DNA of 64,000 nucleotides, from positions 4,253,057 to 4,317,056 of the forward strand of contig NZ_KB913029.1 in the NCBI RefSeq assembly GCF_000384115.1, read 5' to 3'. The position numbers and the translations under genes are program-made. Of this stretch, positions 54,480-58,760 are shown one piece after another. The notes beneath the pieces are model-generated. The model was not told the DNA's origin. It searched no databases and was given only the letters and a program-made list of their open reading frames with translations. Every line of letters starts with the position of its first letter. Positions within the stretch are counted from its first letter, which is position 1. Source of the stretch: Sporichthya polymorpha DSM 43042. Its GTDB lineage: Bacteria; Actinomycetota; Actinomycetes; Sporichthyales; Sporichthyaceae.

Positions 54480-56104
54480 ACGGATCCTCCGTCACCTCTT
54501 GCATCGCCCGCCTGAAGCACCGTCACCGTGCCCGCGGATCCGTCCACCTCGATGAGGTCGCCGTCGGCAATCCGCACCGTGCCGTCACGGGTGCCGATGA
54601 CGCACGGGATGCCGAGCTCGCGGGCGACGATGGCGCCGTGGCTGATCGGGCCGCCGATGTCGATGACCAGCGCAGCCGAGACGATCAGCACCGCCGCCCA
54701 GCTCGGGTCGGTCGTGCGGCAGACCAGGATCTCGCCAGGGGCAGGGCCCTCGTCGACCTCCGGGTCGCGCACGACCCGGGCCACTCCGGCCGCGACGCCG
54801 GGCGTGACCGGGATGCCGGTGACGACCACCGGACCTTCCGCCGCGGCCGGCGGCGCGGTCACGGGCTCGGGGGAGCCGAGCCAGAACTCCGGGAGCTCGA
54901 TCGCCCGGTAGCGCTCGTGCAGCTCCCGGCGGGCGGTGACGAGGTCGGTGACCCCGGCCGGCAGCTGCGGCGCCGCCAGCTCCTCGACGGTCAGGTGGAA
55001 GACGTCCTCGGGCGCGGACAGGACGCCCGCCTCGGTGTGCAGCTCACCCAACCGCAGGGCGGCGGCGCGGGCGGCGTCGACGCACTGCAGGAACGCGCCC
55101 TTCCCGACGCCGCGCAGCGGGAAGAAGCGCCGCGCGACCTTGAGCACGATGCCCGCCGGGGTGCGGGCCCCCCGCGGGGACGCGGCGAGCAGCTCCCGCT
55201 CGGCGGCCTCCCGCTCCGCGGCGCGGGTCGTCTCCAGCGCCCGCGGGCCGGCACTCTCGGCCATGCCCGCGTAGTGTCCGAGCAGCTTCTCCAACGGCGT
55301 GGGGTCCAGCCGCCAGACCCGCGCGGCGAGCTCACCCTCGTTGGGGCCGTGGTACCCGTGCCGGGCGAGGAACTCGGACAGCTCGATACGCCCACGCGAC
55401 ACGTCCCAGAGGTCCCCGACGAACGCGGTCTCGGCCATCTCGCCGTACCCGGTGAGGACGGCGATCTCCAGCCCGGGCCGGTCCGCACGCTCGGCCGCGG
55501 CTCGCACCTGTTCGTAGACGCCCTGACACAACATCGCGGCCACGATGTGGGGCCGCATGACGCCGGCGAACTTGCGCATCGCGGCGTCCAGGGAGCGCCG
55601 GGCCTGATCGGCCGTCATCTCCGGCGCGGCCACGATCGTGTTCCGCCACCAGGGGGCGATGTGCTCGGCGGCCCGCTCCAGTCGTCCGGCGACGCCCCAC
55701 ATCGCCATCGGTGCCTTGGCGGCCACGACGGGATAGCGCTGGTACCGGGGCCGGCTGGAGACCCCGGGGCGCACGGTACCGAACAGCTGAGACTCCATCG
55801 CGTCGCCGCTGGTCCCCGGCATGCGGTCGGCAAGGGAGCGGAACGTCTCCAGGTTCGCGGCGGCGCGGCCGTGGAAAATGTCCCAGACGCGGTCGTCGGG
55901 GTGCGCCGGGCGCGCGACCTGACTCTCCGTCAGGACACCGAGGTCGGCGAACGCGCCCCGCAGGCCGCGCTCGGTCCGCTCGCCGAACACGCTCCACGTC
56001 AGGGTCGTCACGACACCGGGGATCGCCTCGCCGGCGTTGATCGTCGACCAGGCGACGGTGGGCGAGGACCCACCGCAGTGCAGGACGTTCGCCGGCTCGC
56101 TCAC
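54476..56104 (-). CDS. PEP-utilising swivel-domain protein without ATP-grasp domain
   Basis: A 542-residue protein. The C-terminal 80 residues form a phosphohistidine swivel domain with GGPISHGAIVARELGIPCVI (catalytic His). The preceding 450 residues resemble the middle/C-terminal part of PEP-synthase/rifampicin phosphotransferase-like proteins (RHGYHGPNEGELAARVWRLD). The ATP-grasp nucleotide-binding domain that normally precedes them is missing, so it cannot phosphorylate its own His from ATP; a partner in trans or loss of function is implied. The GTG start overlaps the upstream gene stop by 4 bases. Confidence 0.82.
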   Translation of the reverse strand: MSEPANVLHCGGSSPTVAWSTINAGEAIPGVVTTLTWSVFGERTERGLRGAFADLGVLTESQVARPAHPDDRVWDIFHGRAAANLETFRSLADRMPGTSGDAMESQLFGTVRPGVSSRPRYQRYPVVAAKAPMAMWGVAGRLERAAEHIAPWWRNTIVAAPEMTADQARRSLDAAMRKFAGVMRPHIVAAMLCQGVYEQVRAAAERADRPGLEIAVLTGYGEMAETAFVGDLWDVSRGRIELSEFLARHGYHGPNEGELAARVWRLDPTPLEKLLGHYAGMAESAGPRALETTRAAEREAAERELLAASPRGARTPAGIVLKVARRFFPLRGVGKGAFLQCVDAARAAALRLGELHTEAGVLSAPEDVFHLTVEELAAPQLPAGVTDLVTARRELHERYRAIELPEFWLGSPEPVTAPPAAAEGPVVVTGIPVTPGVAAGVARVVRDPEVDEGPAPGEILVCRTTDPSWAAVLIVSAALVIDIGGPISHGAIVARELGIPCVIGTRDGTVRIADGDLIEVDGSAGTVTVLQAGDARGDGGSV

Positions 56105-56712
56105 TCCGTCTCGCCCGCGAGCGCACCGGGTTCGGGACCGGTGTCCTCAACCTCGCCGTTCTTGCGCTGAAACATCTTGCGGACCTTCTGGCCGTTGACG
56201 ACGGCCTTCTCCGGGTCGACGAGGTAGGTGACGTCCTCGACCAGACGGGCGAGGGAGTCCGAGATCCGCTTCTGGTCGATCCGGCTGCCGGCGACCTCGA
56301 CCGCGGCGGTGACGCCCTCGGCGATCCGGCCGACGGTCTCGGTGACGACCTCGTCGAACGACTTCTCGTGCTCCGGGCACGGGGGCAGCGTCGACGGGGT
56401 CGGCCGCACGAGCTTGTGGCGGGTCTTCCACCGCGGGTCGTGCAGGTACGGCCGGCCCGCGACCTCGTAGCGGCAGACCAGTCCGGCTTCGTCCAGCGCC
56501 GCCAGGTCGCGCTCCATCGCCGCCGTCGGGTGCGCGTCCGCGCGCAACGGCCAGAGGAACCCGTTGAGCACGGCGGGGGCGTCCTTCGCCCGTCCCTCGT
56601 CGTCCAGCACCGTCGGGAGGTACGCGTAGGTGAACGCCGTCTCCAGGTCGAGCGCCGCGAGTCGCTCGTCCTGCGCGTCGTCCGGGTGGATGCTGCGGGG
56701 CTTTTGCGGCAT
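56101..56712 (-). CDS. Winged-helix-like protein, first gene of the swivel-protein operon
   Basis: A 203-residue protein I cannot name. The N-terminal 100 residues (LETAFTYAYLPTVLDDEGRA, FLWPLRADAHPTAAMERDLA, LDEAGLVCRYEVAGRPYLHD) resemble the winged-helix domain of phage replisome-organiser type proteins. The second half (EVVTETVGRIAEGVTAAVEV) is helical and ends in an acidic tail. ATG 56712 lies 6 bases after the -10-like GATACT, suggesting a leaderless start. The promoter and first codons are duplicated at 57928-57967. Confidence 0.75.
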   Translation of the reverse strand: MPQKPRSIHPDDAQDERLAALDLETAFTYAYLPTVLDDEGRAKDAPAVLNGFLWPLRADAHPTAAMERDLAALDEAGLVCRYEVAGRPYLHDPRWKTRHKLVRPTPSTLPPCPEHEKSFDEVVTETVGRIAEGVTAAVEVAGSRIDQKRISDSLARLVEDVTYLVDPEKAVVNGQKVRKMFQRKNGEVEDTGPEPGALAGETE

Positions 56713-56726
56713 GACGGCAGTATCCC
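56687..56726. repeat. 40-bp direct repeat, copy 1
   Basis: It covers the first codons of the winged-helix-like gene, its start and its -10-like GATACT (56719-56724, minus strand). It matches 57928-57967 with two mismatches (TTTT against CTCT in the middle). It marks the left border of a lower-GC segment. Confidence 0.85.
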
Positions 56727-56839
56727 CGACGGGGCCACGTGCCGGCCTGCACCGAGTGCGCAGTTCGGCACTGGTCGACCCCGCGTTCGTGGTGCCGATC
56801 TGCGCACTGGGCGCACGTCGGCCCCCGCAGCCGCTCCGA

Positions 56840-56980
56840 TCAGCGGAATCTGTCGTCCCTGCAGCTGGCAAGGATCCGCTTGCCGTTGTGCAGCTTGAAG
56901 GTCACGCCGACGCCCATGCCTGGGCCCAAATTCGGCATGTCGAACGAGTGCCGGTCGTTGACGACAACGTTGGTCCGCAC
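56840..56980 (-). pseudogene. Fragment of a small secreted-type protein
   Basis: A minus-strand reading frame gives VVVNDRHSFDMPNLGPGMG followed by VGVTFKLHNGKRILASC and stops at 56840. The FKLHNGKRILASC end resembles YTLWNGKAIVLDC in the neighbouring secreted protein (57126-57587). No signal peptide or ribosome site precedes it, so it looks like a 3' remnant; GTG 56980 is the only plausible start. The segment from 56727 to 57125 otherwise holds no gene I can support. Confidence 0.35.
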
Positions 56981-57125
56981 CCTCTCCGAGCCGCGGGCGG
57001 TAGGGATACACCCGAACCGACCTGACCCCAGTCGGCCCGCGTGGAACGAACGGGCATGGCCGATCGCGCGGACGGCGGACGCACCGTCATGCGCGCCGTG
57101 GAACGGTGCCGCGCCCGCGGTGGCT

Positions 57126-57587
57126 CTAGCGACGTGGCCTGGTGATGATGATCCCGCCTGCGACCTCGCAGTCGTCGCACGGCGGGTACTTGCCGAGTGT
57201 GCAATCCAGAACGATCGCCTTCCCGTTCCAAAGGGTGTACCTCGCGCCGAACTCCACGATGTCCCGGCTCTTGGCGTAAAAGGTCGGCGGCAGGTCGCGC
57301 CACTTGGTGAAGATGATCTTCTCGGAGTGATGGTTCACGGAGTAAGTCGAGCCCTGGACGCGCCTGATTCGGTTGTTGTCGAAGTTGCCTGACCCGCTCG
57401 GGTGCGTGATCCGAATGCGGACCCGCTTGCCGTTGTCATCCATGAGGGCGCGCAGCTTCACGCCGTGGCGCTCGGTCAGGCACGTCTTCAGTCGCTCGGA
57501 ATGGTCCCGGGCATCGACGGGGGAGGCGAGGACGGCGGTCGGCAGCAGCAGTGCGGCGCTGGCAGCAAGAGCAACGTTTCGGCGCAT
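57126..57587 (-). CDS. Small secreted protein of unknown function
   Basis: A 153-residue protein not recognised. It has a textbook signal peptide (MRRNVALAASAALLLPTAVL then ASPVDA) and a mature part of about 127 residues with four Cys: one early (KTCLTERHG) and three near the end (VLDC, PPCDDC). Its base composition is visibly lower in GC than neighbours, with uncommon codons such as ATA-free but A/T-ending choices (AAA, GTA). ATG 57587 follows a perfect GGAGGTG. It lies inside the segment bracketed by the 40-bp direct repeats, pointing to transfer. Confidence 0.72.
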   Translation of the reverse strand: MRRNVALAASAALLLPTAVLASPVDARDHSERLKTCLTERHGVKLRALMDDNGKRVRIRITHPSGSGNFDNNRIRRVQGSTYSVNHHSEKIIFTKWRDLPPTFYAKSRDIVEFGARYTLWNGKAIVLDCTLGKYPPCDDCEVAGGIIITRPRR

Positions 57588-57920
57588 GGTGGGCACCTCC
57601 TGAGCGCACTGTGCGCTGCTGAGTGAGGCTTCTAAACCTTCATCTGGCAAAGGCACTCAGACCCCGAACAGGACCGGCACGCCACGTACTGCGCGAACCT
57701 CCTGGCGAACATCTCGGACTCGTCGAGCGCGTACTCGGCCCATTCTTCGCCGTGGAGCGAGTCGGAGATCAGCTGACGGACGGTCGGCGTCCGGCGCAGC
57801 ACCTCTACTGCGGGGGCGGCGTCCAGGCCACCAACATCGTCCAGGACGGGGCCGAGCTCGTGGAGTGCTGTCCGGGAAGCGCGAGCGTCGACGCCATCTC
57901 GATCGCCCGAGCGTTTTACG

Positions 57921-57953
57921 TCATTGATGGATGCTGCGGGGCCTCTGCGGCAT
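57921..57953 (-). pseudogene. Truncated duplicate of the winged-helix-like gene start
   Basis: Reading from 57953 on the minus strand gives MPQRPRSIHQ and a stop, matching the first nine residues (MPQKPRSIH) of the gene starting at 56712. Its promoter-like GATACT (57960-57965) is also duplicated. It is a ten-codon stub left by the event that created the direct repeat. Confidence 0.7.
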
Positions 57954-57967
57954 GACGGCAGTATCCC
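57928..57967. repeat. 40-bp direct repeat, copy 2
   Basis: The second copy of the repeat at 56687-56726, in the same orientation, 38 of 40 bases identical. It is located directly upstream of the SRAP gene and forms the right border of the lower-GC segment. Confidence 0.85.
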
Positions 57968-57994: not shown

Positions 57995-58001
57995 GGCGGG
58001 T

Positions 58002-58760
58002 GTGTGTGGGAGGTACGGAGCGAGCTGGGGGGTGGACGACCTCGTCGCCGAGTTCGATCTGGACTCGGTCGACGTGCCGGTCTCCGAGCGCCTCGAGGCT
58101 GACTACAACGTCGCGCCGACGAAGCCGGTGTACGCGGTCGTGACGCGGCGGGGCCGGGACGAACCGGCCGAGGCCGAGGCCACGCGCCGCCTGGCGACGC
58201 TGCGGTGGGGCCTCGTGCCGTTCTGGGCCAAGGACCCGAAGATCGGCGCCCGCATGATCAATGCGCGGATCGAGACCGCGGCCGAGAAACCGGCGTTCCG
58301 GGAGGCGTTCGCGAAGCGGCGCTGCCTGCTCCCCGCCGACGGCTACTACGAGTGGTACACCCCGACCGACGGGGCGGCGAAGAAGCAGCCGTTCTTCATC
58401 CGTCGCCGTGGCGGCGGGGTGCTCGCGATGGCCGGCCTCTACGAGTTCTGGCGCGACCCCACCAAGGACCGCGACGACCCCGACGCGTGGTGGCGGACCT
58501 GCACCGTCATCACGACGACGGCCAGCGATGCGATCGGCGAGATCCACGACCGCCAGCCGATGTTCGTCGAGCCCGGGGCGTGGGCCGATTGGCTGAGTCC
58601 CGAGCAGTCGGACCCGGACGCCCTCCGCGGGCTGCTCGTCCCCAGCCCGGGCGACGGGCTCGAGGCCTACCCCGTCTCGACCGCGGTCAACAACCACCGC
58701 AACAACGGCCCGGAGCTCGTCGTGCCCCTCGAGCACGCCGAGCCGCAGACACTCTTCTGA
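58002..58760 (+). CDS. SOS response-associated peptidase (SRAP) family protein, YedK/HMCES-type
   Basis: A 252-residue protein of the family that cross-links to abasic sites in single-stranded DNA. The essential Cys2 follows the start (MCGRYGASW), which fixes the start at GTG 58002. Other site residues are in ARMINARIETAAEKPAFREA (Asn and Glu region), LLPADGYYEWYTP (Glu) and GEIHDRQPMFVEP (His). The family protects stalled replication forks. It stands alone, with its own promoter. Confidence 0.92.
   Translation: MCGRYGASWGVDDLVAEFDLDSVDVPVSERLEADYNVAPTKPVYAVVTRRGRDEPAEAEATRRLATLRWGLVPFWAKDPKIGARMINARIETAAEKPAFREAFAKRRCLLPADGYYEWYTPTDGAAKKQPFFIRRRGGGVLAMAGLYEFWRDPTKDRDDPDAWWRTCTVITTTASDAIGEIHDRQPMFVEPGAWADWLSPEQSDPDALRGLLVPSPGDGLEAYPVSTAVNNHRNNGPELVVPLEHAEPQTLF

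Follow-up and report, generated by a model that had tools for sequence, protein, structure and literature searches.

Insertions bordered by direct repeats are described for several systems. IS1549 and IS1634 were reported with direct repeats of 8-514 bp (PMC2266710), and homology-facilitated illegitimate recombination has been described for incoming linear DNA (PMC3240628). Integrative elements bordered by attL and attR, and the capture of DNA by Ku/LigD end joining, are further systems against which the locus presented here can be set. The locus lies in a window of 64,000 nucleotides from the soil actinobacterium Sporichthya polymorpha DSM 43042 (G000), a single-contig genome of 5.5 Mb. Positions refer to this window unless they carry a genome label: G001 and G002 are other Sporichthya, and G003 belongs to another genus of the Sporichthyaceae.

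Comparison of these sequences indicates that a 1.2-kb insertion with a 40-bp target duplication between two neighbouring genes is real and polarised. What is unusual about it is mainly how long the duplication is. It is not a new kind of system but a clear, fairly ordinary scar of gene gain.

The repeat pair and the empty site

Two 40-bp direct repeats, identical at 38/40 positions and spaced 1,241 bases apart, enclose the segment. The left copy (56687-56726) holds codons 1-8, the start and a -10-like element (GATACT, minus strand) upstream of the gene that begins at 56712. The right copy (57928-57967) carries a remnant of the duplication, a ten-codon stub that reads MPQRPRSIHQ-stop on the minus strand from 57953 down to 57921 and differs from the intact gene by K4R. 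Both the recurrence of this gene start with its promoter 1,241 bases away and the stub had been noticed in a first-pass annotation of the window, and both are confirmed here. The match is not due to chance, since BLAST of the insert region against the window returns the repeat with an E-value of about 3e-12. Nor is the repeat dispersed: a pattern search allowing up to 3 mismatches found exactly two copies on the whole chromosome.

The left flanking gene (56101-56712, minus strand) encodes 203 amino acids. The N-terminal half of the product is similar to replication-initiation proteins of phages (PHROG 2149, E 1.4e-16), a likeness that would fit the winged-helix assignment in the first-pass annotation. 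To the right lies a gene of the SRAP (SOS response associated peptidase) family (57999-58760, plus strand; PF02586, E 5.5e-71). GC3 is 94% in both. The flanks look vertically inherited because their identity to G002, measured in 300-bp steps, stays at 86-94% on both sides without a jump. Among the loci checked, the left gene adjoins SRAP in G000-G003 only.

In the congener G002 (approximately 90% nucleotide identity), the two genes diverge around a single copy of the repeat and there is no insert. On its contig C26, the left gene matches positions 113467-114106 and the SRAP side matches 114056-114900; the two alignments share about 51 bp, where the single copy lies. The same two genes are directly adjacent and divergent in G003, again with no insert. 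The G001 spacer has a single repeat copy and a different sequence of approximately 0.4 kb, apparently one complete small gene. This small-gene insertion, at about 2670-3090 of L030 (G001 C65), occupies the same divergent spacer and is independent of that in G000, so the spacer accepted DNA twice in the genus. The G000 segment is present in none of the relatives examined. Most simply, the ancestral state would be a divergent pair with one repeat copy, and the segment would have been gained on the G000 branch. The first-pass annotation had read the locus as an insertion that separated two originally divergent genes, and had predicted an empty site in relatives with both genes divergent around one repeat copy. 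The prediction holds in G002, the divergent pair without insert is seen in both G002 and G003, and the insertion reading, supported also by the single repeat copy of G001, is essentially right.

The two repeat copies differ at two positions, and at each of these G002 and G001 share the same base, while the derived base occurs in one G000 copy only. The intact-gene copy has a private silent CAG-to-CAA change and the stub copy a private Lys-to-Arg change. One private change per copy argues for exact duplication followed by divergence, since a divergent donor copy would likely bring extra differences. The copies probably began identical, as expected of a target duplication; the pattern is suggestive, with only two informative sites. 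Of the two routes left open by the earlier annotation, a duplicated target or a copy brought in with the insert, the substitutions thus favour the duplicated target. Beyond the left copy, approximately 10 bp may still match the G002 spacer, though less well, and the spacer on the right is shorter by 12 bp than its G002 counterpart; the initial duplication may therefore have spanned about 51 bp.

Contents of the inserted segment

The inserted segment (56727-57927; 1,201 bp) is absent from G001, G002 and G003. As the first-pass annotation had remarked, GC content falls between the repeat copies: the insert has 66.4% GC against 73.1% for the window, which places it among the lowest 0.5% of windows of its size, and GC3 is 85% in its intact gene against 94% in both flanking genes. 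Paralogues of this secreted-protein gene elsewhere in the genome also have 66-70% GC. Low GC is thus partly a trait of the gene family, and alone is no proof of foreign origin.

The insert is a mosaic of a REP-like palindrome, an intact secreted-protein gene and a truncated metallopeptidase-like gene. The palindrome (56735-56838, with arms at 56741-56771 and 56792-56822) belongs to a family dispersed in G000, where approximately 20 or more places carry units such as GGTGCTGATCTGCGCACTCGGCGCAGGTCGGCCC; the family also occurs in G002. A RAYT-type transposase (PF01797) was considered as the agent behind these palindromes and rejected, as none is found in the three Sporichthya genomes.

The intact gene (57126-57587, minus strand) encodes a small secreted protein of 153 amino acids with a signal-peptide-like start, and is preceded by an AGGAGGT ribosome-binding site. 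A search of 60 relatives and the genome itself recovered genes related to it (about 27-42% identity) from the three Sporichthya genomes alone. Collections of viral contigs, plasmids and phages gave no matches, and a phage or plasmid origin of the gene was rejected on this ground. The structure model of the protein, with a mean pLDDT of 37.8, is too poor to use.

The metallopeptidase-like remnant (57671-57889, minus strand) derives from a secreted protein and is cut at both ends, with its HEIGH motif degraded to HELGP. Over 73 residues it is 59% identical in amino acid sequence to an intact G000 gene at G000:2,654.7-2,655.6 kb, which is conserved in G002. A short open reading frame at 56840-56980 (minus strand) resembles by eye the C-terminus of another secreted-protein copy (VTFKLHNGKRILASC / ARYTLWNGKAIVLDC), and tblastn gave no confirmation of this. 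The first-pass annotation had placed a secreted-protein gene and remnants between the repeats. The gene is as described; as for the remnants, the metallopeptidase-like fragment can be added, and the short frame is a likeness by eye that tblastn does not support.

Six-frame open reading frames, their translations and Pfam searches revealed no transposase or integrase in the insert, either intact or as a remnant. Terminal inverted repeats are absent, the best end-to-end inverted match being a trivial 13-column alignment, and the genome has no related copies of the whole insert. Two Rfam matches fall below E 1, both far under the gathering scores.

Long-repeat insertions elsewhere in the genome

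Alignment of six G002 contigs with the corresponding G000 sequence covered 718 kb. Of the 22 G000-only segments of at least 300 bp that face a near-empty G002 site, 4, the focal one included, have junction direct repeats of at least 40 bp that do not look like paralogous coding sequence. A further G000 case, at 1,958.9 kb, was left out because its repeat probably reflects related coding sequence. One of the 12 G002-only segments (5,378.7 kb) shows a partial match of 75 bp, which falls within repetitive coding sequence and was left uncounted.

Beside a tRNA-Val gene, a G000-only segment of approximately 1.1 kb (G000:4193700-4194782; window -59356 to -58274) carries a Fic-like gene together with a short HTH-like remnant. 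Its direct repeats of approximately 56 bp, about 80% alike, consist of the tRNA 3' end and a terminator hairpin, of which G002 has one copy. At G000:4341523-4343229, a 1.7-kb segment with a DUF222-HNH gene lies between 48-bp direct repeats (42/48 identical) that form a strong terminator-like hairpin, also present once in G002. The fourth case (G000:3743389-3744474), of approximately 1.1 kb, holds an MNT-HEPN-like toxin-antitoxin pair beside tRNA-like sequence, between diverged terminator-region repeats of approximately 86 bp. The Fic and MNT-HEPN assignments and that of the tRNA at 3,743.4 kb come from reading the sequence, not from a family search.

The four junction repeats are mutually unrelated. 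Two of the three that were folded form significant hairpins, and the focal 40-mer does not. A common hairpin target was rejected: the z-score is -0.19 for the focal repeat, against values below -6.6 at two other long-repeat sites. What was duplicated at the focal locus is a shared divergent start region; at the Fic and HNH loci it is a terminator-like hairpin. We infer, as one reading of this, that survivorship may be at work, the insertions that are tolerated being those that duplicate a shared control element.

DUF222 proteins (13E12-type, HNH) have 31 matches in G000 compared to 10-16 in the two other Sporichthya, and about ten copies score almost alike; in G000 they are an expanded, dispersed family. 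The DUF222-HNH gene as a mobile agent was rejected, because only one of the copies examined, among these 31, is flanked by long repeats.

Long-repeat insertion is therefore a recurrent minority pattern, and the numbers are too small to establish a common mechanism. Four cases with unrelated cargo and unrelated repeats in 718 kb give grounds for a broader reading, in which Sporichthya would gain small cassettes without a transposase and regularly duplicate 40-90 bp of a promoter or terminator that the neighbouring genes share, so that both keep their control element. We regard this as improbable.

Origin of the insertion

The reading we tentatively prefer, short of calling it probable, is that Sporichthya chromosomal DNA was captured, without a transposon, where a staggered break was being filled in. 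On the G000 branch, a double-strand break with ends staggered by about 40 bases would have run across the start and shared promoter region of the divergent genes. A Sporichthya-type chromosomal fragment of approximately 1.2 kb, carrying the palindrome, the secreted-protein gene and the truncated metallopeptidase gene, would then have been joined into the gap by end joining. Filling in of the single-stranded overhangs would have duplicated the 40 bp, perhaps about 51 bp originally. Each flanking gene would keep its start and promoter core, with both promoters presumably still working, and the insertion would be tolerated. This capture is favoured because the target duplication is exact, one gene is truncated, element signals are lacking and the genome contains two Ku genes. 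A chromosomal source is favoured because the palindrome, the secreted-protein family and the metallopeptidase recur in Sporichthya genomes, and the virus, plasmid and phage collections have no match; a donor locus of high identity was not found. Against capture, a stagger of 40 nucleotides is long for a spontaneous break, and our search of the literature on bacterial fill-in end joining returned no direct precedent for a 40-bp duplication. Also against it, 18 of the 22 G000-only segments have no long junction repeat, and the remaining three insertions with long repeats lie at terminators or beside tRNAs, positions that could also suit site-specific integration.

If the focal locus arose by site-specific integration, the 40-bp copies would be attL and attR of an integrative element from which internal deletion later removed the integrase and most of the remaining sequence. 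The Fic-like gene at tRNA-Val and the MNT-HEPN-like pair at the tRNA-like sequence, lying between repeats of 50-90 bp and facing an empty or nearly empty G002 site, do look like integration scars. The focal insert has no integrase remnant, however, and it went into the 5' end of a protein-coding gene rather than into a tRNA or a gene 3' end. The 40 bp have no further copy in the genome and no match in viral contigs, the copies were probably identical at the start, and the cargo is chromosomal in kind. Such a scar is thus rather unlikely. In homology-facilitated illegitimate recombination, transferred donor DNA would have undergone homologous recombination within the left gene, and an illegitimate joint falling 40 bp short of the end of homology would have duplicated the gene start. 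The mechanism is described for incoming linear DNA (PMC3240628), and the Sporichthya-like content makes a congeneric donor plausible. Yet the left gene has no divergence step against G002, and the donor would already have to carry the segment beside the left gene, an arrangement that was not seen; we consider this route unlikely.

A further candidate is a transposon of the IS1549/IS1634 type, or a non-autonomous relative. Direct repeats of 8-514 bp are reported for these elements (PMC2266710), and the focal duplication behaves as a target duplication. With no transposase, no terminal inverted repeats and no relative of the complete insert elsewhere in the genome, it is very doubtful. It is also conceivable that the ancestor already had the segment with both repeats and that G002 lost the segment by recombination between them, as deletion between direct repeats also yields a perfect single copy. 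The genes are adjacent in G003 too, however, and G001 combines an unrelated insert with a single repeat copy, which makes ancestral presence extremely unlikely.

The locus offers a cleanly polarised gene gain in a little-studied genus, with the empty site, the duplication and a fossil gene stub preserved together. It suggests how a compact divergent promoter may take up DNA with neither gene being silenced, the duplication leaving each gene its start and promoter core. Should the recurrence of long-repeat insertions in G000 hold, it would suggest that genes can be gained without a transposase, by a mechanism open to testing.

Like IS1549 and IS1634, the focal insert lies between long, target-derived direct repeats of tens of base pairs; those elements have a transposase and terminal inverted repeats, and the insert has neither. 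With attL/attR remnants it shares direct-repeat borders and a single-copy empty site in a relative, but here there is no integrase, no tRNA or gene 3' end, and no mobile copy with the repeat was found. Compared to Ku/LigD end-joining capture, the 40-bp fill-in duplication would be unusually long, and the capture proposed here is one that we infer; the likeness lies in the joining of unrelated, truncated DNA free of element signals, in a genome with Ku genes.
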